NCBI GenBank assembly: GCA_016930835.1
Contig: JAFGGA010000032.1
Location: forward strand, 1 to 52,072
DNA: 52,072 nt
Reading direction: 5' to 3'
From: Deltaproteobacteria bacterium
GTDB lineage: Bacteria > Desulfobacterota > DSM-4660 > Desulfatiglandales > HGW-15
A program made the translations under genes and the position numbers. Of this stretch, positions 36,997-52,072 are shown piece after piece. Each line of letters starts with the position of its first letter. The first letter of the stretch is position 1. The notes beneath the pieces were generated by a model. It worked only from the letters and a program-made list of their open reading frames with translations. It was not told the DNA's origin and ran no database searches.

Positions 36997-37215
36997 ATCG
37001 GTCAATTCATTTGAAGATGATCTAATATTTTCATCTTACCATATCAAATCCAATCAGATTTTGCCTCAAGAAAATGAGCCAGCCTACCATAGCTGACGGA
37101 TGAATAATCACAAAAATAAGGGCGTCCATAACTTCCCCATGGAATTTGTGACCTAAGGGTCATTTTTTTCCATCAGTTCTATTTTTCAATCCTTATTTTA
37201 TCCAAATATTAAGCT

Positions 37216-37233
37216 TGACTGATAACCCAGTCA
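37216..37233. promoter_or_regulatory. Putative regulator operator, site 1
   Basis: TGACTG-ATAACC-CAGTCA, a perfect palindrome with 6-base arms. Related sites lie at 37317-37334 and 40176-40193. Its centre is 101 bases upstream of that of site 2. Confidence 0.6.
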
Positions 37234-37289
37234 TAATACTATAAAATTCATTATTAATATAATTTCATTCATTTACGTCAATAAAATCC

Positions 37290-37318
37290 TTGACAATGAT
37301 ATCGGCCATAAATATAAT
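37290..37318 (+). promoter_or_regulatory. Consensus sigma-70 promoter of the catabolic cluster
   Basis: TTGACA at 37290-37295 and TATAAT at 37313-37318 with exactly 17 bases between: a full consensus promoter. Transcription would start near 37325, leaving a ~145-base leader. A consensus promoter usually means tight control by a repressor, and a palindromic operator overlaps its start. Confidence 0.85.
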
Positions 37319-37334
37319 ACTGGGCAGTCAGTCA
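37317..37334. promoter_or_regulatory. Putative regulator operator, site 2
   Basis: ATACTG-GGCAGT-CAGTCA, the inverse form of site 1 with weaker left arm. It overlaps the end of the -10 box and the expected transcription start, the classical place for a repressor. Confidence 0.6.
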
Positions 37335-37380
37335 TAAAGTAGATCGTTGTTTATTTTTTTAACTTAGGAGATAAAAGAGG

Positions 37381-37434
37381 GCCTAATGAGTGCTCATGCA
37401 GCCATTGCCCTTTTTGGATGGGCACTCATTAGGC
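37381..37434 (+). promoter_or_regulatory. Strong hairpin in the leader of the catabolic cluster
   Basis: The 17-base arms 37381-37397 and 37418-37434 pair completely, with one U-G pair, around a 20-base loop. They begin GCCTAATGAGTGC. The hairpin ends 36 bases before the reductase ATG and is followed by no T run, so it may protect the mRNA or control translation rather than terminate. Confidence 0.6.
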
Positions 37435-37470
37435 ATGGAAATCTATCAAACAATCAATAAGGAGGAAAAC

Positions 37471-38742
37471 ATGACCGAGACAAAACAGAACACTTCCGAA
37501 AATTATCCCGAATTGTTCCAACCGCTAAAGATTGGACCGGTGGAGATCAAGAACCGATTTGCCATGTCGCCTACCTGCATCGATGCCATTGAGCCGGGTG
37601 GTTTTGTAGGTGACCGCATCATATACTTTTTCGCTGCACGGGCGAGGGGAGGCGCAGGTCTCATTTTCACCCTTCCTGCCGAGATTGAGCCCAACATCAC
37701 CAGCGTTAAATATATGAATCCTTGGCTGTACAACAGTCTTCACTTACCCGGGTGGTCCGAGCTTGCGGAAACGATTCATGCCTGGGGAGCAAAGAGCTTC
37801 GTGGAGGTTTCACCCGGAGGCCCCGGCAGGTTGGGAGCCCTTTTGGGAGACGGCAATGCTCTGGCCCCTTCACCTGTACCCATAAATATGGACCCAGAAC
37901 TGGTTGTCTCCAAAAAAGCTCGGAAACTATGGGAAAAGAGGGGTCTGGACCTCGAAGCCCATTATCATATTCAGAATGTATATCCCATGCCGAAAGAAAT
38001 AACAGTGGAAGAGATACACCGGATTGAGGACCAGGTGGCCAATACTGTCTACTTATCGGAGCAGGCAGGGTTTGACGGGGCTGAGGTGCACACGGCACAC
38101 GGTGTACTGGGAGCCAACTTTCTATCGCCTTATACCAACCTCAGGAAGGACGAATATGGCGGGAGCATGGAAAATCGGACCAGATTTACCCGGAATATCC
38201 TCGAACGGGCAAGGAGAAAAATCAGTAAAAATTTCGCGCTGGGAATCCGGATCAGTGCGGCGGAACATGTGCCCGGAGGCCTCACCGCGGAGGAAACAGC
38301 GGAGATCTGTCAATACCTTGAACCCTATGTCGATTTCTTTGATCTATCAAACGGTGTCCATCATGAATCTCATACATTTATGATCCCCGATGAAGACGGA
38401 ACTGTCATTGAGGAAGGCGCCGTGATCAAAAGGGCTGTCAAGGTTCCGGTGATCACCCCTTCCATACATAATCCAGAATTGGGAAGAAAAGCGATACTGG
38501 AAGGGAAAACAGACATGATGGCATCCAGCAGGCAGCTCATAGTGGATCCTGACTATCCGAACAAAGTCAGAGAAGGGAAATCGTACCGGAAATGCATCAA
38601 GTGCCTTCTTGGGTGCACAGGCAGGATTGACATAGGCTTGCCATTGAGATGTGAGCTTAACCCCGACGTGTTGCTGGAATATAGGGATCCTGAATTGGAT
38701 CGAAGAAATGCTCCCAACAAGAAGACATTCACGATCCGCTAG
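37471..38742 (+). CDS. Old-yellow-enzyme-type flavin oxidoreductase with Fe-S motif
   Basis: 423 residues from the ATG at 37471, set by AAGGAGG upstream. The FMN-binding barrel shows ELFQPLKIGPVEIKNRFAMS at the start, the active-site stretch EVHTAHGVLGANFLSPYTNL and DEYGGSMENRTRF. Near the C-terminus, CIKCLLGC plus a further Cys (~375-395) would bind [4Fe-4S], as in 2,4-dienoyl-CoA reductase and BaiCD/BaiH-type enzymes. The FAD/NAD domain those enzymes carry is absent. It is therefore an ene-reductase needing a separate electron donor, plausibly the NuoEFG-like subunits of the cluster. Substrate inferred: an enone or ring diketone. Confidence 0.85.
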   Translation: MTETKQNTSENYPELFQPLKIGPVEIKNRFAMSPTCIDAIEPGGFVGDRIIYFFAARARGGAGLIFTLPAEIEPNITSVKYMNPWLYNSLHLPGWSELAETIHAWGAKSFVEVSPGGPGRLGALLGDGNALAPSPVPINMDPELVVSKKARKLWEKRGLDLEAHYHIQNVYPMPKEITVEEIHRIEDQVANTVYLSEQAGFDGAEVHTAHGVLGANFLSPYTNLRKDEYGGSMENRTRFTRNILERARRKISKNFALGIRISAAEHVPGGLTAEETAEICQYLEPYVDFFDLSNGVHHESHTFMIPDEDGTVIEEGAVIKRAVKVPVITPSIHNPELGRKAILEGKTDMMASSRQLIVDPDYPNKVREGKSYRKCIKCLLGCTGRIDIGLPLRCELNPDVLLEYRDPELDRRNAPNKKTFTIR

Positions 38743-38817
38743 AACAAAGACTATTCCACGACGGGAAATAGGACATGGCATACCGAAGTTCCGCCCTGCT
38801 AATCGATAGAGGAGAAT

Positions 38818-40071
38818 ATGAATAACCTGTCAGAAACGAGATTACCTACTATAGAAGAACGCTTGGCCCTTTTGACAAAATGGAAGGGCGCACATAGATT
38901 CGACAAGGATGTGCTGAGTGCGAAAGTGCCTGAAGGCAGCTACATCGGGAATGAAACAGCCTCCTCGGATAACATTAGACGCTGGGCAACCGCGATGGGT
39001 GACCTGAACTCCCGCCACTTGGTTCCTGATTATGCAGCTAAAACAAGATACGGCCGTCTTGTGGCTCCGCCCCTTTTCCTTCAGAGTATATGCTTTGTGG
39101 GAGCCGGGATGCTGGAAACCGAAATTGAGGGGGCGCGAGGATTTCACAGCGGTTCTGATTGGAATTTCTACAAACCTGTTCTGGAGGGTGATGTCATTGA
39201 TTTCGATGGCTTTACGGTTATCGACGTCAAGGCGGTACGAAGTGAATTCAGTAGTGAAATGATCGTCATCACCGGGGCATGCCAGTATCGGAACCAGATC
39301 AAGGACACGGTCGGCTTGGTCAAGGGTTTCGTCCACAGTTCGGCTGGTGACGCATCGGCCAGGGCAACAGGTAAATATCAACAGATTGCGAAACCTTATC
39401 GCTATACGGAGGAGGAACTGCGCAAAATCGAAGAAGACAAGGATAAGGAGAAGATGCGCGGAAGCGAGCCGAGGTATTGGGAAGAGGTTGCCGAAGGTGA
39501 TTCCATTGGTCATTTGGTGATAGGCCCGCATACGATCATGGATACCATAGCCCATATCGCAGGAACCCAGGGATGTTTTGCCCTGGCTGGCACAGGGAGC
39601 CGTCTCACCAGGACGTGGATCAAAAATATGCTTCTGAAAGGCAGTAAAAACGGTCCTGAAATATGGGATGCACGGATCAATGCCTTTGTAAACGGTGAAC
39701 TGGCGCACCTCGACTACGATCTCGGGAGGGCGACCGGAGCACCGGGAGCTTATGATACAGGGGCTGAAAGGGAATGCCTTGGATCGGTTCTGCTCACCAA
39801 TTGGATGGGCGATGACGGGTTTCTATGGAGATACAGCGTCCGGTTTGTTCGATTCGTAGTTCACGGCGACACAAACTGGTTCCGGGGCAGGATAGCAAAG
39901 AAGTATATCGATGACGGCAAGTGCTGCGTGGATATGGACCTGTGGGCTGATAATCAAAGGAACGACAAGACCGTATTAGGCAGCGCAACCGTGATCTTAC
40001 CATCCAAAGAGCATGGCCCCGTGGTTTATCCGCACCCCCGTACCATCGAGGACATTATGTCGAAGGATTAG
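38818..40071 (+). CDS. Double-hotdog MaoC-like (de)hydratase
   Basis: 417 residues with two hotdog domains. The first (~20-180) resembles the FAS1-type dehydratase domain, with MGDLNSRHLVPDYAAKTRYG and LVAPPLFLQSI. The second (~225-410) begins RYWEEVAEGDSIGHLVIGPH, a MaoC-type opening. It would add water to, or remove it from, an enoyl-CoA or related intermediate. A GAGGAG ribosome site lies before the ATG at 38818. It is the second gene of the cluster, 75 bases after the reductase, in the same direction. Confidence 0.8.
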   Translation: MNNLSETRLPTIEERLALLTKWKGAHRFDKDVLSAKVPEGSYIGNETASSDNIRRWATAMGDLNSRHLVPDYAAKTRYGRLVAPPLFLQSICFVGAGMLETEIEGARGFHSGSDWNFYKPVLEGDVIDFDGFTVIDVKAVRSEFSSEMIVITGACQYRNQIKDTVGLVKGFVHSSAGDASARATGKYQQIAKPYRYTEEELRKIEEDKDKEKMRGSEPRYWEEVAEGDSIGHLVIGPHTIMDTIAHIAGTQGCFALAGTGSRLTRTWIKNMLLKGSKNGPEIWDARINAFVNGELAHLDYDLGRATGAPGAYDTGAERECLGSVLLTNWMGDDGFLWRYSVRFVRFVVHGDTNWFRGRIAKKYIDDGKCCVDMDLWADNQRNDKTVLGSATVILPSKEHGPVVYPHPRTIEDIMSKD

Positions 40072-40525
40072 ACATGTAACCGGGATTAAGTATGAGTCGC
40101 AATCATTTCAGATGATGCCCGTAATTGAGGACTATATTCTTCCTCAACGGACGATATATCGCCGGAAAAAAAGCGTAACTGATGGACCAGTCAGGCAGGT
40201 GAAACGAATACAATATAAGGGATTTAAAGCCTGCGAGAAAGTTTATCGAATGATGATTTTTTGCGGAGAATATATAAAGGATCCTAAGGACAATTTTTAC
40301 GGGTGGTGAGTCAACCCATGAATGTTATTACAAATCGGCCGGTTATATCTATATGAATCATGAAATCATCATTGATAAACGGAGTGGGAAAGTGGTAATC
40401 CATTAGACTCGTGCTTGGAGTACATGACGATAATCAAGAAATTAGGCGGTTTTGGATACAATGTGTCCGGGTGATATCGGTTTGTGGATCATTTAATATC
40501 TGAATTGAGATAAGGAGAAAATCGG
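40072..40525 (+). other. Gap upstream of the hybrid regulator gene
   Basis: A 454-base AT-rich gap with no credible gene. It holds operator site 3 (40176-40193). About 15 bases later TACAAT (40209-40214) could be a -10 box. AGGAG before 40526 serves the regulator. Short reading frames here lack any recognisable pattern. Confidence 0.5.
40176..40193. promoter_or_regulatory. Putative regulator operator, site 3
   Basis: TAACTG-ATGGAC-CAGTCA, 14 of 18 bases identical to site 1, upstream of the regulator gene. This suggests autoregulation. Confidence 0.55.
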
Positions 40526-41686
40526 ATGAAGATAGGTGAACTTGAAAAGAGAACCGGTTTCAACAGAAAAGACATATACAAGCTCATCCAGATGGGGTTG
40601 CTGGGCCAACCCGCGAAGCTTGGGTCCAATCAGTTTGTCTTCGAGGATGGCCATGTTTTGGCGCTGGAAAAGATAGCCCAGCTTCAAAGGCCGGAAACGG
40701 ATGACGACCCGAAATTCAGATCAACCAGTAGGTCTGACGGTCCCGTATCTACGGATGGAAAACCCCTTTCGTTCGACAAAAAGAAACAAATCATGGATAA
40801 GGCGATCTCGCTCTTTTCCAAGAACGGCTTTGAAAACACGAAGCTCAGCGATATTACCGAAAGTCTCGGTATGGCAAAAGGAACCTTTTATCTCTATTTC
40901 AAGAGCAAGAAAGACCTCCTCATTGAGTGTATCAGCCAACTGAGCGCCAATGTTGTCGAGAGGGAGAGCTGGGAACAACTCCGTAGCGAACCAGACTTCA
41001 TCCGCAGGCAGAGGATAAGTTTATCTCAATTCCTGAAAGCTTTCCCCACATTTAATGGAATCCATATCCTTCTTGCCGCTTCACTTCAAAGTGATGATCC
41101 CGAAATCGTGGAAAAGGCCAAAGATTATTTCAGGATGCTTTCCCGCTGGCTTAGAAGTGACCTGAAGCGGGCAATCGATGATAAGGCCGTGCGGGAGGTC
41201 GACACCGTTATCATGAGCGCCCTTATGCTCGGCATGGCTCAAGGTTTGGGGACAATGATTTCCATCTATCCTGAATATACCAAGGAACAGGGAATTGATG
41301 CCTTCATCGACTTACTTCAAAGGGGGATCATTTCTGCGAAAGCAGAACAGTCGAAGGCCGCCTGCTGGGAAGTCACGGACACATCAGGTTATCGTGTTAG
41401 ATTGGTCGACCTCCTTTTCGATGGAAATCCACACCTCTCCATCGAATTGGGGCAAGGTGAGGTGCAAGTTCCATGTGAGAGGATTTCGTCCCTGCGGATA
41501 GACAGAAGTGACAATGGGCTAATGGCCGAAATGGCCATTGACGAAGGCCAAAACAGATCCTTTGTGGTGGACGGCAAGAGCGTTTTGTCCGGCAGACTTG
41601 GCTATGGTGTATACAAAGTTCATATGGAAAGATTGTCTACGATTTTTGGAATCCCGGAAACCGAGAACACAGCGGCGGAACCATAG
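40526..41686 (+). CDS. Three-domain regulator: MerR-like HTH, TetR, C-terminal beta domain
   Basis: 386 residues. Residues 1-~55 resemble a MerR-type winged helix (MKIGELEKRTGFNRKDIYKL IQMGLL). Residues ~85-270 are a TetR repressor: KKKQIMDKAISLFSKNGFEN, then ITESLGMAKGTFYLYFKSKK, and a ligand-binding helical body. Residues ~285-386 are an extra beta-rich domain (VRLVDLLFDGNPHLSIELGQ and SGRLGYGVYKVHMERLSTIF) that I cannot name. TetR proteins are usually ~200 residues, so this is a fusion. It lies inside the catabolic cluster and probably binds the three palindromes at 37216, 37317 and 40176. Confidence 0.82.
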   Translation: MKIGELEKRTGFNRKDIYKLIQMGLLGQPAKLGSNQFVFEDGHVLALEKIAQLQRPETDDDPKFRSTSRSDGPVSTDGKPLSFDKKKQIMDKAISLFSKNGFENTKLSDITESLGMAKGTFYLYFKSKKDLLIECISQLSANVVERESWEQLRSEPDFIRRQRISLSQFLKAFPTFNGIHILLAASLQSDDPEIVEKAKDYFRMLSRWLRSDLKRAIDDKAVREVDTVIMSALMLGMAQGLGTMISIYPEYTKEQGIDAFIDLLQRGIISAKAEQSKAACWEVTDTSGYRVRLVDLLFDGNPHLSIELGQGEVQVPCERISSLRIDRSDNGLMAEMAIDEGQNRSFVVDGKSVLSGRLGYGVYKVHMERLSTIFGIPETENTAAEP

Positions 41687-41830
41687 CTTTCTCCGTTTGA
41701 TCCAAGTACTGGCTGAATCTCCCGCAAGCTTGGAATCCGAATCTGAGATTAAGCGGCTAGTGCGGATCGTGGTCACTTTGACCGCGTGGACACCACGACG
41801 GAAGACCTTTCAAAGAGAAGGAGCATCATT

Positions 41831-42634
41831 ATGAACACGATGAATTTAGTATCCAGGCTGAAGTTCGAGGAGTACAAGGAGAAATATGCGGACTTTATCA
41901 GGATGGAGCGAAGAAACGGGATTATCCTTCTGCGAATGCATCATAACGGGGGGCCTGTTCTGTGGAACGAGGCTATGCACAATGCTCTGCCCCAGGCTTT
42001 CCATGACGTGGGCAATGATATGGAAAACCAGGTCATGATCCTTACCTCTACTGATCCGTACTGGATAGGAGAAAGTGATCCCAATGCAGAGTTTCGGTTT
42101 GATTACGATACCTACTATGTAGATGCAACGAAGCTGCTTGTAAACCTGATCTTCGATGTCGACATCCCTACCATTGCAGCCGTCAACGGGCCCGGTTTTC
42201 ACACCGAGATTGCGCTTTTATGCGACATTACAATCTGCACCGAAGATAGCGTCTTTCAAGACGCCCATTTTTCGGTAGGATTTGTCCCGGGCGATGGACA
42301 GCTTCTAACATTCCAAGAACTGATTGGCGTTAAGCGTTCGGCATATGCCCTTTATACAGGTGAACAAATCGATGCCAGAACAGCTTATGACTGGGGGATG
42401 GTCAATGAAATCGTTTCTAAAGACGGGCTGGTAGCCCGCGCGTGGGAAATTGCCGGAAAAATCATGAAGCAGCCACGTGCAACCCGATGCTTGACCCACC
42501 AACTCCTGACCCGCCCCTGGAAACGCCGTCTGATCAATGATTTTCAGGGTCATGTAGCTCAAGAAGGCTTTGCGGCTCGTTTGGACGCACCTGATCATGA
42601 TCTGAATCGGATAAAGGATACATGGGACAAGTAA
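41831..42634 (+). CDS. Crotonase-fold beta-diketone hydrolase (6-oxocamphor hydrolase-like)
   Basis: 267 residues from the ATG at 41831 (AAGGAG seven bases upstream). It is of the crotonase fold but without the catalytic Glu of enoyl-CoA hydratases. Instead it keeps the residues of 6-oxocamphor hydrolase (H122, H145, D154, E244, numbering from memory) at matching spacing. These are His124 (GFHTE), His146 (AHFSVG), Asp155 (VPGDG) and Glu245 (VAQEG). It also shares HHNGGPVLWNEAMH near the N-terminus. That enzyme splits a cyclic beta-diketone by retro-Claisen hydrolysis, without CoA. A ring-opening role in this cluster is strongly suggested; the exact diketone is inference. Confidence 0.82.
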   Translation: MNTMNLVSRLKFEEYKEKYADFIRMERRNGIILLRMHHNGGPVLWNEAMHNALPQAFHDVGNDMENQVMILTSTDPYWIGESDPNAEFRFDYDTYYVDATKLLVNLIFDVDIPTIAAVNGPGFHTEIALLCDITICTEDSVFQDAHFSVGFVPGDGQLLTFQELIGVKRSAYALYTGEQIDARTAYDWGMVNEIVSKDGLVARAWEIAGKIMKQPRATRCLTHQLLTRPWKRRLINDFQGHVAQEGFAARLDAPDHDLNRIKDTWDK

Positions 42635-43027
42635 GCGATACTCCAGGGAAGAAAAAGAGAAGAGTGGCAAAAAACCAGGTAAGGGAGTCCATGATTTGGA
42701 TAAGAACAGTTTAAAGTAGCCCACGGGCGCCGCGGAGTCCACCGCTATGCTTGTACCCATCAAGTTTGAGGCATACGATATCCGGATTATGGAGCGGGCT
42801 TGTCTGGCAATCGGCTGAGAGCATAATCCCATCTTCCGGCGGATTTCTCAAGCTGTTTAAGCAGATAGCGTGCGACTTGAAAGAAACTATTCGTTCACGC
42901 CGGCAGTGGACAGTTGTCCACCCATGGCGGTCGAACAAAAATAAGAGATGGTAAGTACAAAGAACCAAAACAGAATTGTGGGCACTCCAGCCTATACACA
43001 GGAGGCTCCATAAACGGGGATTCAAAC
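42635..43027. other. Gene-free gap before the acyl-CoA ligase
   Basis: 393 bases with no gene, repeat or clear promoter that I can support. AGGAGG at ~43000 is about 20 bases too far upstream to serve the ligase ATG at 43028; GGGGATT is closer. Confidence 0.4.
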
Positions 43028-44656
43028 ATGGAGGAAACAAGACTAAGTATGGGAGCACATCGGCAACCTGCGAAACAGTTTCAAATGATGGAGGAGCTTA
43101 TCACCAGTGCGAGGGAGATTTCCGCTCCAGAGCAGATTATTTTGGAAAGGGCAGGCGGTGGACATCTTGAGATGGGCGAGTGTCTGACGAATATCGACAG
43201 GATATCAAACATGTTTGTGGAATTGGGATTCCGGAAAAATCGTAATGTTGCGGTTTTCCTGCCCAATTGTCTGGAATACGCATACTTTTATCTGACTCTA
43301 GGCCGGCTTGGTATAACCGTTCTTCCCGTCAATCAGTTTCTGAAGGGAGAGCCCTTGAGTTATGTGCTGAACCATTGCGATATTGAATTCTTGATAACAA
43401 ACAAAGAGCTTTTTCTTAATGTCATCAACCCCATATCGGAAAGTTTGGAGCACGTTCATTGTGTTATATTTCTTGACGAAAAGGTCCCAACGGAAAAGTT
43501 CGAATCAACCGCGATATTCTCGGACTTTAAAAATTTTTCGTCCGATTTTAAACAACCTTGGCCCGTAAACGCAACGGATGTGGCGGTTATATGGCTTACT
43601 AGCGGAACTACAGGCTTGCCCAAAGGGGTCGTTTGCACACAAGAGTATCTGCTGCAAAGGATGTCCTACAGCGTGGAATTCTTCGGTCTCAATTCTCGCG
43701 ACGTCATCTATTTCATTCTACCCATGTATCACATCCCATTCTATACTTGGGGAGTGCCGATGGCCATGGCAGCGGGATGCAAGCTCGTTTTCGTTGACTG
43801 GTTCAGCGCGAGCAAGTTTTGGGAGCATGCCGCCACATATCAGGCGACAGTGGTCTACTCGACCGGAACCATCATTCCGATATTACTCAAGAGCCAGATG
43901 GGAGAGTTCGAACAAGAAGCAAGAGAACGGATCAGATTCTGGGGTGCTTGGCCTGTCGATCAACCGGAAGTGGTATTTAAACGGTGGCCGAAAACGAGAT
44001 TCGTGTCCGGATACGGGCTGAGTGAATACGCCCTTGCCACGAATCATTTCTATAATGAAAAGGATATGTCACAAGGCCCGGCTACACCTTTCACAGAGTT
44101 GAAGATATGCGATCCTGATACGGGCGAGACGCTTCCCACGGGCGTCTCCGGGGAAATAGTGGTCCGCAGCAAACTGGGACCGGGTTTCATGATGCAATGT
44201 TATTACAAATCCCCTGAGGCTACGATCAAAACAATCCGGGACGGATGGCTATACACCGGGGACGGAGGTTATCTGGACGATAAGGGGAAACTGCACTTTG
44301 TCGACCGCCTGAAAGACTCGGTGAGGGTGGGGGGAGAGAACGTGCCATCGGTTCAGGTAGAGGGCATCATTGCGAGCCATCCAAAAATTGCGGAGGTGGC
44401 GGTAACAGGTGTGAAGGGCGAGTTGGGTAGCGACGAGATCGCAGCACACTTGGTACTTAAGGAAGGAGAACACCTTGCCGCTGAAGAATTTTTTCAATTC
44501 TGTGAAGATAGAATGGCTTACTTTATGGTTCCCGGGTATCTCCGGATCCATAAGGAGCTGCCGAAGACAACCAATCTGAAGGTTCAAAAATATAAGCTCA
44601 GAGAAGAAGGTCTGACCGAAGATTATTTTCGCAGAGCGGGACCGAAAAGAAGATAG
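43028..44656 (+). CDS. AMP-forming acyl-CoA ligase
   Basis: 542 residues from the ATG at 43028; upstream in-frame codons show no family similarity. Motifs of the ANL superfamily: the phosphate loop TSGTTGLPKG at 191-200, YGLSEYALA (A5), YTGDGGYLDDKGKLHFVDRL with the A7/A8 region, and the C-terminal catalytic Lys in NLKVQKYKL. It activates a carboxylic acid as acyl-AMP and then acyl-CoA. Similarity in outline to CaiC-type carnitine/crotonobetaine ligases is seen, but the substrate may be the acid released by the diketone hydrolase encoded just upstream. Confidence 0.9.
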   Translation: MEETRLSMGAHRQPAKQFQMMEELITSAREISAPEQIILERAGGGHLEMGECLTNIDRISNMFVELGFRKNRNVAVFLPNCLEYAYFYLTLGRLGITVLPVNQFLKGEPLSYVLNHCDIEFLITNKELFLNVINPISESLEHVHCVIFLDEKVPTEKFESTAIFSDFKNFSSDFKQPWPVNATDVAVIWLTSGTTGLPKGVVCTQEYLLQRMSYSVEFFGLNSRDVIYFILPMYHIPFYTWGVPMAMAAGCKLVFVDWFSASKFWEHAATYQATVVYSTGTIIPILLKSQMGEFEQEARERIRFWGAWPVDQPEVVFKRWPKTRFVSGYGLSEYALATNHFYNEKDMSQGPATPFTELKICDPDTGETLPTGVSGEIVVRSKLGPGFMMQCYYKSPEATIKTIRDGWLYTGDGGYLDDKGKLHFVDRLKDSVRVGGENVPSVQVEGIIASHPKIAEVAVTGVKGELGSDEIAAHLVLKEGEHLAAEEFFQFCEDRMAYFMVPGYLRIHKELPKTTNLKVQKYKLREEGLTEDYFRRAGPKRR

Positions 44657-44690
44657 GGAACATGGAAGCGGATGAGCAGGAGGTTTGGAT

Positions 44691-47672
44691 ATGCATGCAA
44701 AAAGAATTATCTTCGAGGTGCTGCTATTTGGTATGTATCAGGTATTGAAGCACACGGCCAGGAAGTATCCGGCTTTCAGAGAACGGCTCAATGAACACAA
44801 CTGTCTAGTGCAGTTAAGGCTGAAGGATAAGTCCGCCGGAAGGTATTTGCAATTCGAAAATGGAAGGATAAAGTCGAAAAGGGGGCTTCACTCTCATCCC
44901 GACGCGGAGTTAATTTTTGATTCCGCGGATTCGGCGGTCCAAACATTCGCATCACCCCGGGATTTTCAGGGGCGAATCGACGCCGCGAAAAACTTCCGTT
45001 TTTTGCCTACAGGGCCCGAAGTTTTAACCACATGGTTTATGGAACTTCTCAGCCTGATGCAAAGCGCAAATGTCCTGCTAAAGGGAGACTATGGAATCGA
45101 TCTGGGCAACGGGGTGAAGAGGTATACAAACCTCACGACCGGAGGGCCCGTATTTGTCTATGTGAAAGGCGGAAGGATACTCAGGGTCACACCGATCGAG
45201 TTCGATGAATCCGATGCCCAGCCGTGGACGATAGAGGCCCGGGGGAAAAGTTTCACCCCTCCCCGGAAGGCAACCGTAAGCCAGTATGCGCTCGCGATAA
45301 AATCCATGGTCTACTCTCCTGATCGGCTTCTCTACCCGATGAAACGGATCGATTTTGACCCCGAAGGAGAACGAAATTGCCAGAATCGTGGCATCTCCGG
45401 GTATGAACGGATCACTTGGGATGAGGCGCTCGATATTGTTGCCAACGAGATCAGGAGGGTGAAGAAACAGTATGGGCCTGGGGCGATCTTCTCCAGCCAC
45501 GGCTCGCACCATATGCTAGGCAATATCGGTTATTGGTGTAGCGCCTTGGCAAGGCTGACGAACAGCATAGGGACAAGTATCTGTATCAATAACCCCGATA
45601 GCTGGGAAGGCTGGCATTGGGGGGCCGAACACCATTGGGGCAATTCCATGAGAGTCGGAGGCCTGGAGCCCTATGGTACCGTCGAGGACTGTCTCAAAGA
45701 ATGCGAGATGGTGGTATTCTGGTCGAGCGACCCCGAGTCAACGGGCGGTGTATATCACGCAATGGATGGTACGATTCGAAGATTCTGGCTGAAAGACTTG
45801 GGGATCAAAGTCGTACATATTGATCCTTATCTGAATCATACCGCCGGCTTGCTCGGGGGAAAATGGCTCGCGCCTAGACCGGGAGCGGGTAACGCCATGG
45901 CTCTGGCCATCGCCTACGTGTGGATGACCGAGGGGTTGTATGACAGAGATTATGTCGCCGAAAGAACGACGGGTTTCGAGAAGTGGCGCGAATATGTCCT
46001 CGGCAAGGAAGATGGGATACCTAAAACGCCAGAATGGCAGGAAGCTGAGACAGGCGTCGCCGCAAAGGATGTGAGGGCCCTTGCGAGGGAATGGGGTTCC
46101 AAGAGGACCTATCTTGGAGTAGGAGGACCGGGGAATATGGTGGGCGGGGCAGGTCGTGAAGCCACGGGCACTGAATGGGCCAGATCCATGGTATGTCTGA
46201 TGGCAATGCAAGGCCTCGGAAAACCAGGCGTGAATATGGGCAATCTCCAGTTCGCGACCCCACTAGATACGAAGTTTTTCTTTCCTGGTTATGCCGAGGG
46301 CGGTATGGGTGGAGATGTGTTCGGGATGAGCGAACTGATCCTCAATATGTATCAGAGAATGCCGCAGATGCCCACGCTGAATACGGTAAAACAACTCGTG
46401 CCCCGCTTGCGAATTCCTGAAGCTTTGAAGGGGGAGTCGATCGAGGCTTACATGACGGCTCACCTCACCACAAATGAACAATTTTTAAAATTCGGATACC
46501 CAGCACCCGGCCACTCGCCCATTAAACTGTACTACAAGTACGGAGGGTCATACATCGGTACGATGAATGACACCAATCGATTCGTCAAGTCCTACCGAAA
46601 TGATAAATTGGAATTCGTGGTTAATCAGTCGATCTGGAACGAAGGTGAGGCCAGGTTTGCGGACATTATTCTCCCGGCTTGCACGAACTTCGAGCGGTGG
46701 GATATAGGCGAGTCGGGAAATTGCGGGGGATTCAACCAAAACAGCTATCTCGGGCTCAACCATCGGCTGATGGTCATGCAGCATAAATGCATCGAGCCGA
46801 TTGGGGAATCCAAATCGGATTACGACATCTGTTATGAGATAGCAAAAAGGCTCGATCTTGGCCTTTATTATTCGGAAGGCATGAGTGACTATGATTGGTG
46901 TAGAAGATTATTCGATGGGACTGATCTTCCCAAGGTAATCAGTTGGAGAAAGTTTCTTCGAAAAGGCTACTATGTCGTTCCAGCCCCTTCAGAAGCTCGC
47001 CGCGATCCAGTCGCTATGCGATGGTATCAGGAGGGCAGAAAGAAGGACACTCCTGAGGCCCCGCCTGCTCCCTGCGACTATGTCGGGAATTGGCTGGAGG
47101 GAGTGGCAACCCAGACGGGTAAGATCGAATTCGAGTGTTCGAGCCTAAAGCGGTTTGACCCCAATGACCCGGAACGACCCACCATAACAAAGTTCATCCC
47201 TTCTTGGGAGGGAATACACACCACTGAGCTCTTTGAAAAGTTTCCGCTCCAGTTGATCACGCCGCATGCCAGGTATTCTTATCATACCCATCAGGATGGA
47301 AAAGATAGCTTTATCAACGATATTAAAGACCATCGTACTTTAATCGGAGGTTACTATTACTGGATTATCAGGTTGAACCCCGTGGATGCGGATGCGAGAT
47401 ACGTTACGGACGGAGATCTTGTGAAGGTTTACAACGATCGCGGCGCGGTGATCTGCGCAGCCCAGGTGACTAGGAGGGTTCGGCCAGGTGTCGTCCATTC
47501 TTACACTTCGTGTGCGAAATACGAACCCATCGGCGATCCCGGCTACTCTCCGGATCGCGGCGGATGTATGAACCTTCTTACTCCTAGCCGCAATATTATC
47601 AAACGATCCCATTCGCACGCAGCAAATTCCTGTCTTGTCCAGATTGAAAAATGGCAGGAGGAGGTGAAGTAA
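44691..47672 (+). CDS. SCP2-like domain fused to transhydroxylase-type molybdopterin large subunit
   Basis: 993 residues from the ATG at 44691 (AGGAGG seven bases upstream). Residues ~1-145 resemble an SCP2 sterol-carrier fold (LVQLRLKDKSAGRYLQFENG, HSHPDAELIFDSADS). From ~150 the protein closely follows the large subunit of pyrogallol-phloroglucinol transhydroxylase (AthL, DMSO-reductase family): GGPVFVYVKGGRILRVTPIE, ARGKSFTPPRKATV, NPDSWEGWHWG. It lacks an N-terminal Fe-S motif, as AthL does. Mo ligand Ser304 and neighbours Asp303/Trp305, His273, Tyr281 and Tyr534 match S175, D174/W176, H144, Y152 and Y404 of AthL (numbering from memory). AthL Arg153 is Trp282 here, so the substrate may differ. 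No Tat signal, hence cytoplasmic. Confidence 0.9.
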   Translation: MHAKRIIFEVLLFGMYQVLKHTARKYPAFRERLNEHNCLVQLRLKDKSAGRYLQFENGRIKSKRGLHSHPDAELIFDSADSAVQTFASPRDFQGRIDAAKNFRFLPTGPEVLTTWFMELLSLMQSANVLLKGDYGIDLGNGVKRYTNLTTGGPVFVYVKGGRILRVTPIEFDESDAQPWTIEARGKSFTPPRKATVSQYALAIKSMVYSPDRLLYPMKRIDFDPEGERNCQNRGISGYERITWDEALDIVANEIRRVKKQYGPGAIFSSHGSHHMLGNIGYWCSALARLTNSIGTSICINNPDSWEGWHWGAEHHWGNSMRVGGLEPYGTVEDCLKECEMVVFWSSDPESTGGVYHAMDGTIRRFWLKDLGIKVVHIDPYLNHTAGLLGGKWLAPRPGAGNAMALAIAYVWMTEGLYDRDYVAERTTGFEKWREYVLGKEDGIPKTPEWQEAETGVAAKDVRALAREWGSKRTYLGVGGPGNMVGGAGREATGTEWARSMVCLMAMQGLGKPGVNMGNLQFATPLDTKFFFPGYAEGGMGGDVFGMSELILNMYQRMPQMPTLNTVKQLVPRLRIPEALKGESIEAYMTAHLTTNEQFLKFGYPAPGHSPIKLYYKYGGSYIGTMNDTNRFVKSYRNDKLEFVVNQSIWNEGEARFADIILPACTNFERWDIGESGNCGGFNQNSYLGLNHRLMVMQHKCIEPIGESKSDYDICYEIAKRLDLGLYYSEGMSDYDWCRRLFDGTDLPKVISWRKFLRKGYYVVPAPSEARRDPVAMRWYQEGRKKDTPEAPPAPCDYVGNWLEGVATQTGKIEFECSSLKRFDPNDPERPTITKFIPSWEGIHTTELFEKFPLQLITPHARYSYHTHQDGKDSFINDIKDHRTLIGGYYYWIIRLNPVDADARYVTDGDLVKVYNDRGAVICAAQVTRRVRPGVVHSYTSCAKYEPIGDPGYSPDRGGCMNLLTPSRNIIKRSHSHAANSCLVQIEKWQEEVK

Positions 47673-47673
47673 T

Positions 47674-48513
47674 ATGAAGAAATGGCGAATGATCATCGAC
47701 GTGGAACGTTGTGAGGACTGCAATTGCTGCTATATGGCGTGTAAGGATGAACATTGCGACAATTCTTTTCCAGGGTACAGCCCGGGTCAACCGAAACATG
47801 GACATAGGTGGATCGAAATATTTCGCAAAGAGAGGGGAAAAGGTTCTTTGACGGATGTCTTCTATCTTCCCGTTCCGTGCATGCACTGCAACAATCCCCA
47901 ATGCATGACAAAGGCGAAGAACGGGGCTATCAAAAGGCGAAGTGACGGGATAATCCTGATCGATCCGGAAAAAGCACTGGGGCAAAAAGAACTGGTCGAC
48001 GCCTGCCCCTATGGAGCTATCTACTGGAATGATGAGATGAATATACCGCAGAAATGTACCTTCTGCGCCCATCTCATCAATGATAAGTGGAAGGCGCCAA
48101 GGTGTGTTCAGGCCTGTCCAACTGGCGCACTCCGGGCGGTGTGCGTCGAGGATGAAGAATTCCGGGAGATAATTGACAAGGAAGGCTTGGCCCCCTACAA
48201 ACCGGAGTTGGGAACCGATCCGAACGTCTTTTACAAGAACCTTGACCGATTCACTAAGGCTTTTATAGCCGCCAGCGTTGCCAAGAGGGTCGATGGCATA
48301 TCGGACTGTGCGGAAGGCGCGCATGTGACATTGATCAAGGACGGGAAGAAGATCGGGGAGTTAATTACGGACAACTATGGTGATTTTAAGTTCGACGGCC
48401 TGGAAGAGAATAGTGGTGCTTACACAATCTCGATAGAAGCGGACGGATTCAGGGAGAAGACCATGGAAGTCCACCTGACAGAGAGCATCTATATGGGTGA
48501 CATTTACTTGTAA
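47674..48513 (+). CDS. Transhydroxylase-type Fe-S small subunit
   Basis: 279 residues. Cysteine groups CEDCNCCYMAC, CMHCNNPQC, CPYG, CTFC and CVQACPTGAL would hold three [4Fe-4S] clusters, and HRWIEIFRKERGKG follows the AthS pattern. Residues ~210-279 form a transthyretin/Cna-B-like beta domain (AHVTLIKDGKKIGELITDNY to IYL), the same unusual C-terminal domain found in the AthS subunit of Pelobacter acidigallici. This makes the pair a true transhydroxylase-type complex rather than a general molybdoenzyme. It starts one base after the large-subunit stop with GGAGGTG upstream. Confidence 0.92.
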   Translation: MKKWRMIIDVERCEDCNCCYMACKDEHCDNSFPGYSPGQPKHGHRWIEIFRKERGKGSLTDVFYLPVPCMHCNNPQCMTKAKNGAIKRRSDGIILIDPEKALGQKELVDACPYGAIYWNDEMNIPQKCTFCAHLINDKWKAPRCVQACPTGALRAVCVEDEEFREIIDKEGLAPYKPELGTDPNVFYKNLDRFTKAFIAASVAKRVDGISDCAEGAHVTLIKDGKKIGELITDNYGDFKFDGLEENSGAYTISIEADGFREKTMEVHLTESIYMGDIYL

Positions 48514-48707
48514 AAGGATTGTCTGTTCATATATTCCCGGAGAAGGAGGCACCGAAGCTCTTGATTATAAGCTGTCTTTATTCATAACCGGGACTCAACT
48601 CAAGGTGGATGGCGTAACCACCACCCAGTGATGTTTTACTACTGGCGAAACCACAGACTTGAAAAGAAAGGTAACACTTTAGCTGTTTTCACAATATCTA
48701 AACAACT

Positions 48708-48735
48708 GGATTCCGCGATCAAGTCGCGGAATGAC
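48708..48735 (+). repeat. REP-like palindrome, locus C, copy 1
   Basis: Identical 28-base unit to 308-335, in the gap between the transhydroxylase and gldA genes. The rest of this 417-base gap (48514-48930) has no gene; a GC-rich segment (GGGCGCGGCGCAGGCAGG) lies between the two copies. Confidence 0.8.
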
Positions 48736-48839
48736 CTGTCTACCGCGTCGGGCGCGGCGCAGGCAGGCGGAAAAGGGGAAATCATAAGAAAAAAATAAGA
48801 TGCGTGCTTCATAAAGATGCAGCGATAGTAAAATCGAAC

Positions 48840-48867
48840 GTCATTCCGCGACTTGATCGCGGAATCC
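48840..48867 (-). repeat. REP-like palindrome, locus C, copy 2 (inverted)
   Basis: Exact inverse of the unit at 48708-48735; the two point at each other across ~104 bases. The pair could form a large stem in RNA and may separate the transhydroxylase and gldA messages. Confidence 0.8.
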
Positions 48868-48930
48868 AAATTTTGCATCTCATCATTTTCAAAGGGCTAA
48901 ACTAGCACAAAGAAAGGAGACTTTTCGACG

Positions 48931-50037
48931 ATGTATAGCATAATGATAGCCCCAGGCAGATATGTACAAGGTCCCGGCGTGCTCGACAAGATCGGGGATC
49001 ATATACGTCACCTGGGTGACAAGGTGTTCTTCATCGGGGGACCTACGGCCATTGAAATCGTGAAACAAAAGGCCGGCGAAAACCTTAAAGAGAATGAAAT
49101 GAAATTTCATTTTGAGCCCTTTACGGGCGAGTGCACAAGGGCGAGCGCGGCCGCGCTCACCGAAAAGGCGAAGTCATTTGGTGCTCAGGTCATCGTCGGG
49201 ACCGGTGGTGGAAGGACCATCGATACGGCCAAGGCCGTGTCCCACGAGCTTGCTTGTTTTCTGGTCATCGCGCCGACCGTGGCCTCCAACGATGCCCCTT
49301 GCAGTGCTCTGTCCGTCCAGTATGATGAAAACCATATGCTCGACCGTTTTCTGATCCTGAGACGGAACCCTGATGTGGTGCTGGTGGATTCACGGGTCAT
49401 CGTGCAGGCCCCGACGCGGTATTTCGTGGCGGGTATGGGGGATGCGCTCGCTACCTGGTTTGAGGCATTTACCTGTACGAAGTCCATGGCGAAAAACCTC
49501 CCCGGTGGGGTGAGTACGGCGGCGGCCCTCAATCTGGCCAGGCTCTGCTTCGACACCTTGATGGAATATGGGGTCTCCGCCAAACTGGCTGTGGACGATA
49601 ATGCGCTTACCCCTGCAGTGGAGCGGGTTATAGAAGCCAATACCCTGTTGAGCGGCCTGGGATTTGAGAGTTCAGGACTTGCCGCGGCCCATGGAATTCA
49701 TGAAGGGCTCCATGTCCTGGAGGGCGCGGGCGATAAACTCCATGGAGAATTGGTGGCCTTTGGAACGCTTGCTCAGATGGTCTTTGAGAATTACGACAGG
49801 AAGGAAATCGATCGCGTGTTGACCTTCTGCCATGATGTCGGTCTTCCCGTCACATTGGAACACTTAGGGGTCAAGGACGCCTCCCCAGAAAAGATATTGA
49901 AGGCAGCAGAAGTGTCCTGTATGGAAGGTTTGACCACGCATAACTCATATCTTGAAATCAATCCGGAACGGATTCTGGGGGCCATTCTGGGTGCCAATGC
50001 CCTGGGCAAGGCCTTCTTAAAGTCACTTGAAGCGTAA
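48931..50037 (+). CDS. gldA: Glycerol dehydrogenase
   Basis: 368 residues, the length of GldA (iron-containing alcohol dehydrogenase superfamily, Zn-dependent). It oxidises glycerol to dihydroxyacetone with NAD, or the reverse. The NAD loop is GTGGGRTIDTAKAV. Metal ligands are Asp in GMGDALATWFEA, His in GLAAAHGIHEGL and His in LHGELVAFGTL. AGGAG precedes the ATG. It could serve the glycerol genes 13 kb upstream, or handle a hydroxy-ketone made in the ring-degradation cluster it sits in. The sequence favours glycerol; the location leaves the second option open. Confidence 0.88.
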   Translation: MYSIMIAPGRYVQGPGVLDKIGDHIRHLGDKVFFIGGPTAIEIVKQKAGENLKENEMKFHFEPFTGECTRASAAALTEKAKSFGAQVIVGTGGGRTIDTAKAVSHELACFLVIAPTVASNDAPCSALSVQYDENHMLDRFLILRRNPDVVLVDSRVIVQAPTRYFVAGMGDALATWFEAFTCTKSMAKNLPGGVSTAAALNLARLCFDTLMEYGVSAKLAVDDNALTPAVERVIEANTLLSGLGFESSGLAAAHGIHEGLHVLEGAGDKLHGELVAFGTLAQMVFENYDRKEIDRVLTFCHDVGLPVTLEHLGVKDASPEKILKAAEVSCMEGLTTHNSYLEINPERILGAILGANALGKAFLKSLEA

Positions 50038-50109
50038 GCCGGTTCACCGCTTGAGGACAGGCAAGGTTTCGACCAGTGCCGGCTCTTCGGATCTGGAGGA
50101 AATGAACGG

Positions 50110-51222
50110 ATGGGAAAGGTTCATGTTGTCATAGACGGCCGTGAGGTAACCGGGGAGAAAGGGGAGACCATCCTTAAGGTAGCGAGACGAGAGGGTGTGG
50201 ATATCCCTACTTTGTGCCACCGGGAGGAGATAACCCCCAGCGGGGTTTGCAGAATCTGTGTCGTCGAGGTGGAAGGCTTATCCAGACTGGTCGCCTCCTG
50301 CCATACCCCGATCTCCGATGGGATGATCATACATACGGCCTCACCCAAGGTGCTTCTATCCAGGCGGGTAACATTGGAGTTGCTCATGGCAGGGCATAGC
50401 GGTTCGTGTGTCGAGGACCCGCTCGCGGATTCATGTGAGTTGCACCAGTTAGCCTCCAAGATGGAGATGGGTCCTCCACGGTTTTCCGTGAAGCATCCGA
50501 GGATCTACCCAATGGAGGTAAACAACCCGTATGTGGTGAGGGATCTCTCCAAATGCATTCTATGCAGGCGTTGTGTGGGGGCGTGCGATGAAGTGGCACA
50601 ACAGTCTGTTTTCTCTATCGGGTATCGAGGGGTCCACCATAAGATTATTGTTGGTGCGGACGGTCCCCTCGATTGTGAAGTGTGCCGGGACTGTGGTGTA
50701 TGCATCGATTTCTGCCCCACAAACGCCTTGAAACCGGCCGCTGGAAGAGGTCATCCCGATGTACCGAATGCGGCCTGGAACAAAGGGGGGTCGCGTTCGA
50801 TGGAAAGGCCCTCGATGCGGAAAGGCCTGCTGGAGGAACTGAAAAAGGAGCAGATCGAATGCCGGTTTGTAAGCGAGGCGGCAATGGCGCGGCTCAAGGA
50901 GCATTTTCACACCACACTCGGTGAAGTCTACGGCCTGACCACTTTTTACTCTTTCCTGTCCACTAAACCCACCGGCAGAAATATCATCAGGGTCTGCAAG
51001 AGTCTCCCGTGTTTTCTGAAGAACGGCATCTTGCTCCTGAAAGCCATCAAAAAGGCCATTGGAATCGGCCCCGGGGAAACCACGGTAGACGGGAGGTTTT
51101 CACTGGAACTTACGAACTGCATTGGGGCATGCGACAGGGCCCCGGCGATCATGGTGAATCACGACGTATATGGGGATGTCACGGAAGAGAAAATCCCCGG
51201 GATTCTGGAGGACTACAAATGA
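50110..51222 (+). CDS. Fusion of NuoG-like N-terminal Fe-S domains and NuoE-like domain
   Basis: 370 residues. Residues 1-80 are a [2Fe-2S] ferredoxin domain (PTLCHREEITPSGVCRIC). Residues ~95-115 match the His-Cys [4Fe-4S] segment, but the second Cys is Asp (HSGSCVEDPLADSC). Residues ~150-215 hold two [4Fe-4S] motifs (CILCRRCVGAC and CEVCRDCGVC-IDFC). From ~255 the chain is NuoE-like, with FVSEAAMARLKEHF, VYGLTTFYSF and [2Fe-2S] Cys in VCKSLPC and NCIGACDRAP. It resembles subunits of soluble NAD-linked formate dehydrogenases, hydrogenases and flavin-based bifurcating complexes. The NuoF-like gene follows at 18 bases. It probably couples NADH to the reductase of the cluster. Confidence 0.85.
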   Translation: MGKVHVVIDGREVTGEKGETILKVARREGVDIPTLCHREEITPSGVCRICVVEVEGLSRLVASCHTPISDGMIIHTASPKVLLSRRVTLELLMAGHSGSCVEDPLADSCELHQLASKMEMGPPRFSVKHPRIYPMEVNNPYVVRDLSKCILCRRCVGACDEVAQQSVFSIGYRGVHHKIIVGADGPLDCEVCRDCGVCIDFCPTNALKPAAGRGHPDVPNAAWNKGGSRSMERPSMRKGLLEELKKEQIECRFVSEAAMARLKEHFHTTLGEVYGLTTFYSFLSTKPTGRNIIRVCKSLPCFLKNGILLLKAIKKAIGIGPGETTVDGRFSLELTNCIGACDRAPAIMVNHDVYGDVTEEKIPGILEDYK

Positions 51223-51240
51223 TAGGGTTGGGAGGTGAAT

Positions 51241-52072
51241 GTGCCTGAAAGAAAATTGGTGCTGAGACACTGCGGGAAAATCGATCCGGAGGATATTTCT
51301 ACTTACCTGGCCTCAGGGGGCTTCCAGGGGTTGAAAAGGGCGCGGGATGAGATGTCGCCAGCGGAAGTGGTTGAGGAAGTGAAGGCCTCTGGCCTTCGAG
51401 GAAGGGGTGGTGCGGGTTTTTCTTGCGGTGTCAAGTGGGAGATGGTAGCCACATCTGAGAGTCCTGAAAAATTTTTTATTTGCAATGCCGATGAAGGTGA
51501 GGTTGGGACTTTCAAGGACAGGATCATGCTTGAAAAGGATGCTTTCAGCCTTATGGAGGGGATCCTGATCGCCTGTTACGCACTCGGGGTTGGGCATGCC
51601 TTTCTTTACCTGCGAGAGGAGTACTCCTTTTTGGCGGGGAGGCTGCAAAAGGCCATAGATCAGGCTACGCGCGAAGGATTTTGTGACGGAACGGTGATCG
51701 AAATGGTGGAGGGTGCGGGAGCCTATGTCTGCGGCGAAGAGAGCGCCCTCATGGAATCCATTGAAGGAAAAAGGGGAGAACCCCGGTATAGGCCCCCCTT
51801 CCCTACGGATCAGGGACTCTTCGGTAAACCTACTGTTGTGAACAACGTGGAGACGTTGATGAACATCCCCTGGATCATCACTCACGGCGCCGGTGCCTTC
51901 AAGCAGATTGGAGTGGAGAAGAATTCCGGCACCAAGGTTTTTTGCGTCATCGGCGATGTGGAAAGACCCGGCGTTTATGAACTGGCCCTGGGGAGCACGG
52001 TTGAGGAACTCGTACTGGAACATGCAGGAGCCCGGGACGTGCGGATGGTCCAGGTGGGGGGAGGCGGCGGAC
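51241..52072 (+). CDS. NuoF-like NADH-binding flavoprotein (runs off the window)
   Basis: 277 codons are visible and the frame is open at the window end. The start is GTG with GGAGGT upstream. Motifs of the 51-kDa subunit: GLRGRGGAGFSCGVKWEM (NADH/FMN loop), NADEGEVGTFKDR, GAYVCGEESALMESIEGKRG and VNNVETLMN. The C-terminal Cys motif for the N3 cluster lies beyond the window. It binds FMN and takes electrons from NADH, passing them to the Fe-S clusters of the preceding fusion protein. Which complex it belongs to depends on the genes that follow. Confidence 0.9.
   Translation, partial: MPERKLVLRHCGKIDPEDISTYLASGGFQGLKRARDEMSPAEVVEEVKASGLRGRGGAGFSCGVKWEMVATSESPEKFFICNADEGEVGTFKDRIMLEKDAFSLMEGILIACYALGVGHAFLYLREEYSFLAGRLQKAIDQATREGFCDGTVIEMVEGAGAYVCGEESALMESIEGKRGEPRYRPPFPTDQGLFGKPTVVNNVETLMNIPWIITHGAGAFKQIGVEKNSGTKVFCVIGDVERPGVYELALGSTVEELVLEHAGARDVRMVQVGGGGG

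Follow-up and report, generated by a model that had tools for sequence, protein, structure and literature searches.

The loss of carbon from peat, sediment, and gut is controlled by the anaerobic degradation of phenols; to our knowledge, the genes known for this process act for the most part on small soluble phenols, phloroglucinol among them. The described systems closest to the locus of this study were (i) pyrogallol-phloroglucinol transhydroxylase (PGTH) of Pelobacter acidigallici (PDB 4v4c), (ii) 6-oxocamphor hydrolase and beta-diketone hydrolase (1o8u and 2j5g), (iii) the canonical phloroglucinol pathway of Clostridium scatologenes, composed of phloroglucinol reductase (PGR), DPGC cyclohydrolase, HOHDH, and TAL (PMC10470551), and (iv) resorcinol hydroxylase RhL/RhS of Azoarcus anaerobius, which acts on a meta-diphenol (PMC10100899). 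The locus, a candidate ring-degradation unit at 37.4 to 48.5 kb, was located in a 52,072-nt stretch of DNA (hereafter the window) that was the entire contig JAFGGA010000032.1 (G000:C82) of a 4.7-Mb, 224-contig metagenome-assembled genome (MAG) of an uncultured Desulfobacterota (Deltaproteobacteria) bacterium. A preliminary description had placed in the window, on a single strand, genes for an old yellow enzyme (OYE) without an NADH domain, a MaoC-type protein, a regulator, a crotonase, a ligase, the molybdenum (Mo) and iron-sulfur (FeS) subunits of a transhydroxylase-like enzyme, gldA, and Nuo subunits; all of these were found, and all of them, from OYE through NuoF, lay on the + strand. Not mentioned in that description were the SCP2-like N-terminal domain and active-site changes of the Mo subunit, a 454-bp gap between the MaoC and regulator genes, the inverted repeat and 417-bp gap ahead of gldA, and the extent of the window as a whole contig. 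The components of the unit were as follows:

37456-38742, + strand: OYE family reductase with a [4Fe-4S] motif and without an NAD(P)H domain (PF00724, 185 bits)
38818-40071, + strand: double-hotdog MaoC-type (de)hydratase (PF13452 and PF01575)
40526-41686, + strand: TetR-family regulator (PF00440, TetR_N, at residues 89-135)
41831-42634, + strand: crotonase of the 6-oxocamphor hydrolase / beta-diketone hydrolase type, candidate ring opener (178 bits to 1o8u)
43028-44656, + strand: AMP-forming acyl-CoA ligase (PF00501 and PF13193); the start ATG at 43028 was a matter of judgement, the frame being open from 42914
44685-45119, + strand: SCP2-like domain (lipid-binding fold) at the N terminus of the Mo subunit, covering residues 1 to about 145 (Pfam SCP2 in its clade, and fold search)
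45120-47672, + strand: transhydroxylase-family molybdopterin catalytic domain of the Mo subunit (PF21423, PF00384, and PF01568)
47674-48513, + strand: FeS subunit with a C-terminal beta-barrel, PGTH small-subunit type (PF13247 and PF13620; residues 1-266 matched 4v4c_B with 274 bits)

The unit and the canonical phloroglucinol pathway shared the logic of ring reduction followed by retro-Claisen opening, but the unit had OYE for the short-chain dehydrogenase (SDR), crotonase for the Mn cyclase, and ligase plus MaoC for HOHDH plus BKACE. It is a serious, if tentative, possibility that the unit constitutes a second, substrate-specialized polyhydroxybenzene module beside a canonical route encoded on another contig (C137) of the same genome (see below). 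From the families, residues, fold, clade, and neighborhoods observed, we infer the substrate, reaction order, electron donor, and all activities of the unit to be as follows: the SCP2-like domain would dock a hydrophobic polyphenol with alkyl or acyl substituents; the Mo center would move or add a hydroxyl, bringing the ring hydroxyls into meta positions and making a diketone tautomer possible; the ring would be reduced by OYE or by the PGR-type SDR encoded on C137; the cyclic 1,3-diketone so formed would be opened by the crotonase in a retro-Claisen hydrolysis that needs no CoA; the freed acid would be activated with CoA by the ligase; and MaoC would hydrate or dehydrate a CoA-ester intermediate. 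The gene set of the window represented a variant of known chemistry and would not fully replace the phloroglucinol route; the added lipid-binding domain of the Mo enzyme suggests an undescribed anaerobic route for greasy phenols beside the normal one. Such a lipid-domain enzyme, linked in some genomes to a CoA-independent diketone hydrolase, would make the breakdown of substituted or lipophilic phenols accessible to tests at the gene level and would add a second family of ring-opening enzymes.

Mo/FeS enzyme of the window compared with PGTH

The sequence comparison was applied to the Mo/FeS pair of the window together with PGTH. The pair belonged to the two-subunit Mo/FeS type (AthL/AthS), its two genes being 1 bp apart, and the Mo subunit matched the PGTH large subunit (4v4c chain A) with 991 bits, sharing the catalytic fold over 848 residues; a Ser-coordinated Mo lineage was common to the pair and RhL/RhS. 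Compared to the PGTH active site, which we take from the structure to consist of H144, Y152, R153, D174, S175, W176, W354, Y404, C557, and Y560, the window Mo subunit kept seven of the ten positions (H144, Y152, D174, the Mo ligand Ser175, W176, Y404, and C557) but displayed the changes R153W, W354M, and Y560F, giving the signature HYWDSWMYCF versus HYRDSWWYCY in PGTH. When aligned to PGTH, the SCP2-type Mo proteins carried W or Y in place of R153 and F or M in place of W354, and they retained H144, Y152, D174, S175, W176, and Y404, with the exception of I at D174 in the Salipiger copy. Most of the short PGTH-type copies from the same or related genomes kept all ten residues.

The window Mo subunit also differed from PGTH in having about 145 additional amino acids at its N terminus. 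Pfam SCP2 was matched by 7 of the 14 clade members (best E 3.6e-4), and the top fold matches of an AlphaFold2 model of this domain (pLDDT 67, a moderate confidence) were SCP2 proteins, with TM of about 0.5-0.6, including UbiJ-SCP2, a lipid-binding protein of the ubiquinone pathway; the SCP2 domain profile found no match among PDB sequences. In the tree, the SCP2-type Mo proteins branched together (support 0.956) as the sister group of PGTH and its short relatives, outside the PGTH clade itself. By these sequence features, the window Mo enzyme is classed not as an ordinary PGTH but as a sister-clade relative with an SCP2-like domain, and pyrogallol would be an unlikely main substrate because of the active-site changes and the added domain. 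A literature search on SCP2-molybdopterin fusions found nothing useful.

A third transhydroxylase-type group, with the signature HYKDSWEYAY, was represented by loci L015-L017, L024-L026, L031, and L077.

Canonical phloroglucinol genes and settings of SCP2-type Mo genes

Contig C137 harbored a cluster of PGR-like SDR, cyclase, cupin, 3HCDH, and BKACE genes, the families of which were confirmed by Pfam. The closest PDB entries to its SDR were 5g4k/5g4l (253 bits versus 170 for the next), presumably PGR of Clostridium sp. BAA-442, and its cyclase had W20 and Y22, by which cyclohydrolase is reported to be told from isatin hydrolase (PMC10470551). Judged by gene content, a canonical phloroglucinol route is thus encoded on C137, while no SDR, cyclase, 3HCDH, or BKACE gene was found between 37.4 and 48.5 kb of the window. 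The proposal that the window genes replaced the known phloroglucinol enzymes was only partly supported: with the canonical route encoded as well, the window unit would not be the only route of the genome. The Mo gene of C137 was a decayed fragment (locus L051, 7840-8640) interrupted by stop codons, including one at the R153 position, and the end of the cluster was without an FeS gene, while relatives kept Mo and FeS intact there; the window's genome yielded no intact plain PGTH gene.

SCP2-type Mo genes in six Desulfobacterota loci directly adjoined 3HCDH, SDR, BKACE, and cupin genes, and in five of the six also a cyclase gene; by family, this is the phloroglucinol pathway gene set of C. scatologenes (PMC10470551). 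Such settings bear on an alternative in which the window Mo/FeS pair supplies the C137 route, while OYE, MaoC, crotonase, and ligase serve an unrelated pathway for alicyclic or terpenoid compounds and adjoin the pair by accident. The C137 gene content with its broken Mo remnant, the placement of SCP2-type Mo genes within the canonical cluster in relatives, and the lack of conservation of the window gene set all agree with it. However, the window Mo gene was not an ortholog of the cluster copy of this family and instead grouped with Rhodospirillales and aerobe-plasmid copies (0.987), the C137 remnant resembled the relatives' copies (57%) more than the window copy (47%), and the ligase and Mo genes were spaced by only 28 bp; the alternative is considered unlikely. 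The possibility that the window Mo gene was the family's phloroglucinol-cluster gene in a new location was rejected on the basis of the tree and the C137 remnant.

SCP2-type Mo/FeS pairs were also found on plasmids of Burkholderia, Paraburkholderia, Ensifer, Cupriavidus, Rhizobium, and Sinorhizobium (L088-L094, together with Salipiger), accompanied by an acyl-CoA synthetase gene and, in most, by FAH, VOC, and FadL/OmpW-type genes (VOC and FadL/OmpW in the annotated ones). This cluster is apparently undescribed, and its gene content could point to an aerobic route for lipophilic phenols. The Sinorhizobium Mo copy was seemingly split by an insertion, and the Salipiger copy lay in a different setting. 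OYE-family genes adjoined two other SCP2-type Mo loci (L128 and L131, from G159 and G431), one of which had the long form. More broadly, it is possible, though doubtful, that the SCP2-fused Mo subfamily of Desulfobacterota, SAR324, and anaerobic plus aerobic Proteobacteria opens hydrophobic (alkylated or acylated) polyhydroxybenzenes to degradation, and that in some anaerobes a 6-oxocamphor-hydrolase-type crotonase instead of the known Mn cyclohydrolase then opens the ring.

Crotonase, OYE, and MaoC as possible partners of the Mo enzyme

The 6-oxocamphor hydrolase type hydrolyses cyclic diketones that are not CoA esters, as is established for 6-oxocamphor hydrolase itself. The window crotonase scored much higher against 6-oxocamphor hydrolase and against Anabaena beta-diketone hydrolase (149 bits) than against the next crotonase (77 bits), the first of these matches being 100 bits above ordinary crotonases, and it retained all five diagnostic residues (W40, H122, H145, D154, and E244); it is accordingly a beta-diketone hydrolase by residues, as the preliminary description had held. 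Compared to 6-oxocamphor hydrolase, it represented a separate subfamily of anaerobe-type genomes, with about 40% identity to the plasmid-borne relatives of aerobes. Crotonases of this kind were rare: they occurred in 3 of the 85 class genomes and 3 of 395 of the phylum sample (window genome counted in both), and five convincing loci came out of a scan of 85,000 species.

The neighborhoods of the relatives were as follows: (i) at L075 (Rhodospirillales), crotonase was followed by SDR (45% to the C137 SDR, with 5g4k as best PDB match by a narrow margin), 3HCDH (37%), and FAH; (ii) at L076 (Desulfobacteraceae), it was followed by SDR (45%); and (iii) at L077 (Phycisphaerae), it was clustered with a third-subclade transhydroxylase relative, which was not counted as an SCP2-type Mo gene. 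Full-length SCP2-type Mo genes (57-64%) were present in the genomes of L075, L076, and L078 (SAR324) and in G077. Because of the diketone-hydrolase residues and the relatives beside PGR-like SDRs in SCP2-Mo genomes, a role of the crotonase in opening reduced polyhydroxybenzene rings is plausible. Several crotonase-bearing genomes also held cyclase-family genes, and the crotonase thus does not strictly replace the cyclase. On aerobe plasmids, crotonase lay beside a cyclase-family gene (H1 and H2) or beside SDR plus alkene reductase (Pantoea), a loose parallel to the window.

In L077, the neighbors of the third-group Mo gene were amidohydrolase, hydantoinase-like, and TRAP transporter genes. G074, a Deltaproteobacteria MAG from the family of the window's genome and without an SCP2-type Mo gene, had three separate diketone-hydrolase-type crotonase paralogs (L046, L047, and L048). 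An arylsulfotransferase gene (PF05935) was located near the crotonase at L078 (1670-2962), with lookalikes by eye near Mo loci L112 and L050; these neighbors might point to sulfated phenols.

A complete replacement pathway (pyrogallol to phloroglucinol, reduction by OYE, and opening by crotonase), as in the preliminary description, would draw on enzyme types every one of which was present in the window, and the adjacency of crotonase relatives to PGR-like SDRs speaks for it. We nevertheless regard this pathway as very improbable: the genome encodes the canonical route, the Mo active site departs from that of PGTH while most short PGTH-type copies of related genomes retain all the residues listed above, and the reductase beside crotonase relatives was an SDR, not an OYE.

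The window OYE had the [4Fe-4S] motif CX2CX3CX11C and an HxxH motif, with NCR 6qkg as best PDB match (132 bits), and MaoC kept its D-x4-H motif at 62-67. The lack of an NAD(P)H domain and the [4Fe-4S] motif fit a ferredoxin-type donor, and a reductive resorcinol or alkylresorcinol route can be drawn from this, in which a ferredoxin-linked OYE would yield cyclohexane-1,3-dione, the crotonase would yield 5-oxohexanoate (or an alkyl homolog), ligase and MaoC would follow, and the Mo enzyme would feed or modify the ring. The crotonase is of a type suited to such a diketone, and resorcinol reductase has been described as ferredoxin-dependent, with hydrolytic cleavage next (PMC10470551). There was, however, no resorcinol-pathway gene for comparison, OYE relatives and crotonase relatives did not co-occur as neighbors, and the route does not require a role for the Mo enzyme, making it decidedly unlikely. 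Nothing useful was found in the literature on resorcinol-reductase genes or alkylresorcinol catabolism.

Recurrence of the same gene set in other genomes had been named beforehand as a check, and the complete set was not found: OYE was matched in 6 and MaoC in 10 of the 85 class genomes, and a plasmid search with OYE gave no match. Half of the refuting test set in the preliminary description thus went against its proposal. MaoC relatives neighbored SDR, CaiB, and 3HCDH genes. OYE and MaoC were rejected as conserved partners, their homologs sitting with AOR-type and SDR/CaiB/3HCDH genes, respectively. Of the single ring-opening route of the preliminary description, the crotonase opener was thus strengthened by its relatives beside PGR-like SDRs in two unrelated SCP2-Mo genomes, but the OYE and MaoC links were not conserved.

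For the tentative reading of the unit as a second, substrate-specialized module, the association of crotonase with SCP2-type Mo genes was counted: four of eight crotonase-bearing genomes (window's excluded) had the latter, versus 7/84 in the class (P 0.003) and 6/394 in the phylum (P 4e-6; binomial), the outside genomes being from other phyla and the class and phylum base rates a rough yardstick only. Besides the roughness of this yardstick, the following weighed against this reading: (i) the co-occurrence was not significant within the class or phylum sample alone; (ii) the window crotonase branched outside the clade holding the SDR-linked crotonases; (iii) the closest OYE relatives (44-47% identity) neighbored AOR-type genes, not a Mo enzyme; (iv) OYE, MaoC, ligase, crotonase, and Mo genes occurred together only in the window, the five-gene set being found nowhere else; (v) the window member's own Pfam SCP2 match was below cut-off (E 0.13), and the confidence of the domain model was only moderate; (vi) gaps of 454 bp (between MaoC and regulator), 144 bp, and about 390 bp weakened the reading of 37.4 to 48.5 kb as a single operon; and (vii) the source genome was a MAG with an estimated contamination of 3.8%.

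Downstream genes and upstream regulatory sites

The following features lay downstream of the FeS gene:

48707-48735 and 48840-48868, no strand: arms of a perfect 29-nt inverted repeat pair (repeat search)
48931-50037, + strand: gldA-type glycerol dehydrogenase (NF006941, 462 bits over its cut-off)
50110-51222, + strand: NuoG-N/NuoE fusion (profile matches)
51235-52071, + strand: NuoF, cut by the contig end (profile matches)

A 417-bp gap separated the FeS gene from gldA and contained the inverted repeat, the arms of which were 104 nt apart; the pair resembles an attenuated terminator or a small mobile element and probably marks the end of the ring-gene unit. Genes resembling glpA, glpB, and glpK were seen by eye at 30.5-35.4 kb. 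Because of the inverted repeat, the gap, and these upstream glp-like genes, membership of gldA/Nuo in the ring-gene unit was rejected: a separate unit is likelier, and gldA probably does not act in the ring pathway. NuoG-N/NuoE plus NuoF constituted an NADH-linked electron-transfer module, for which a link to the ring genes is at most a possibility.

Candidate regulatory sites were located upstream of OYE:

37290-37318, + strand: candidate promoter, a perfect TTGACA-17-TATAAT (consensus match only)
37215-37231, - strand, and 37319-37335, + strand: candidate operators ACTGGG-NNN-TCAGTCA, two near-identical copies flanking the promoter (sequence match)

The regulator encoded within the unit had, by eye, a MerR-like helix-turn-helix at its N terminus, fused to the TetR part.

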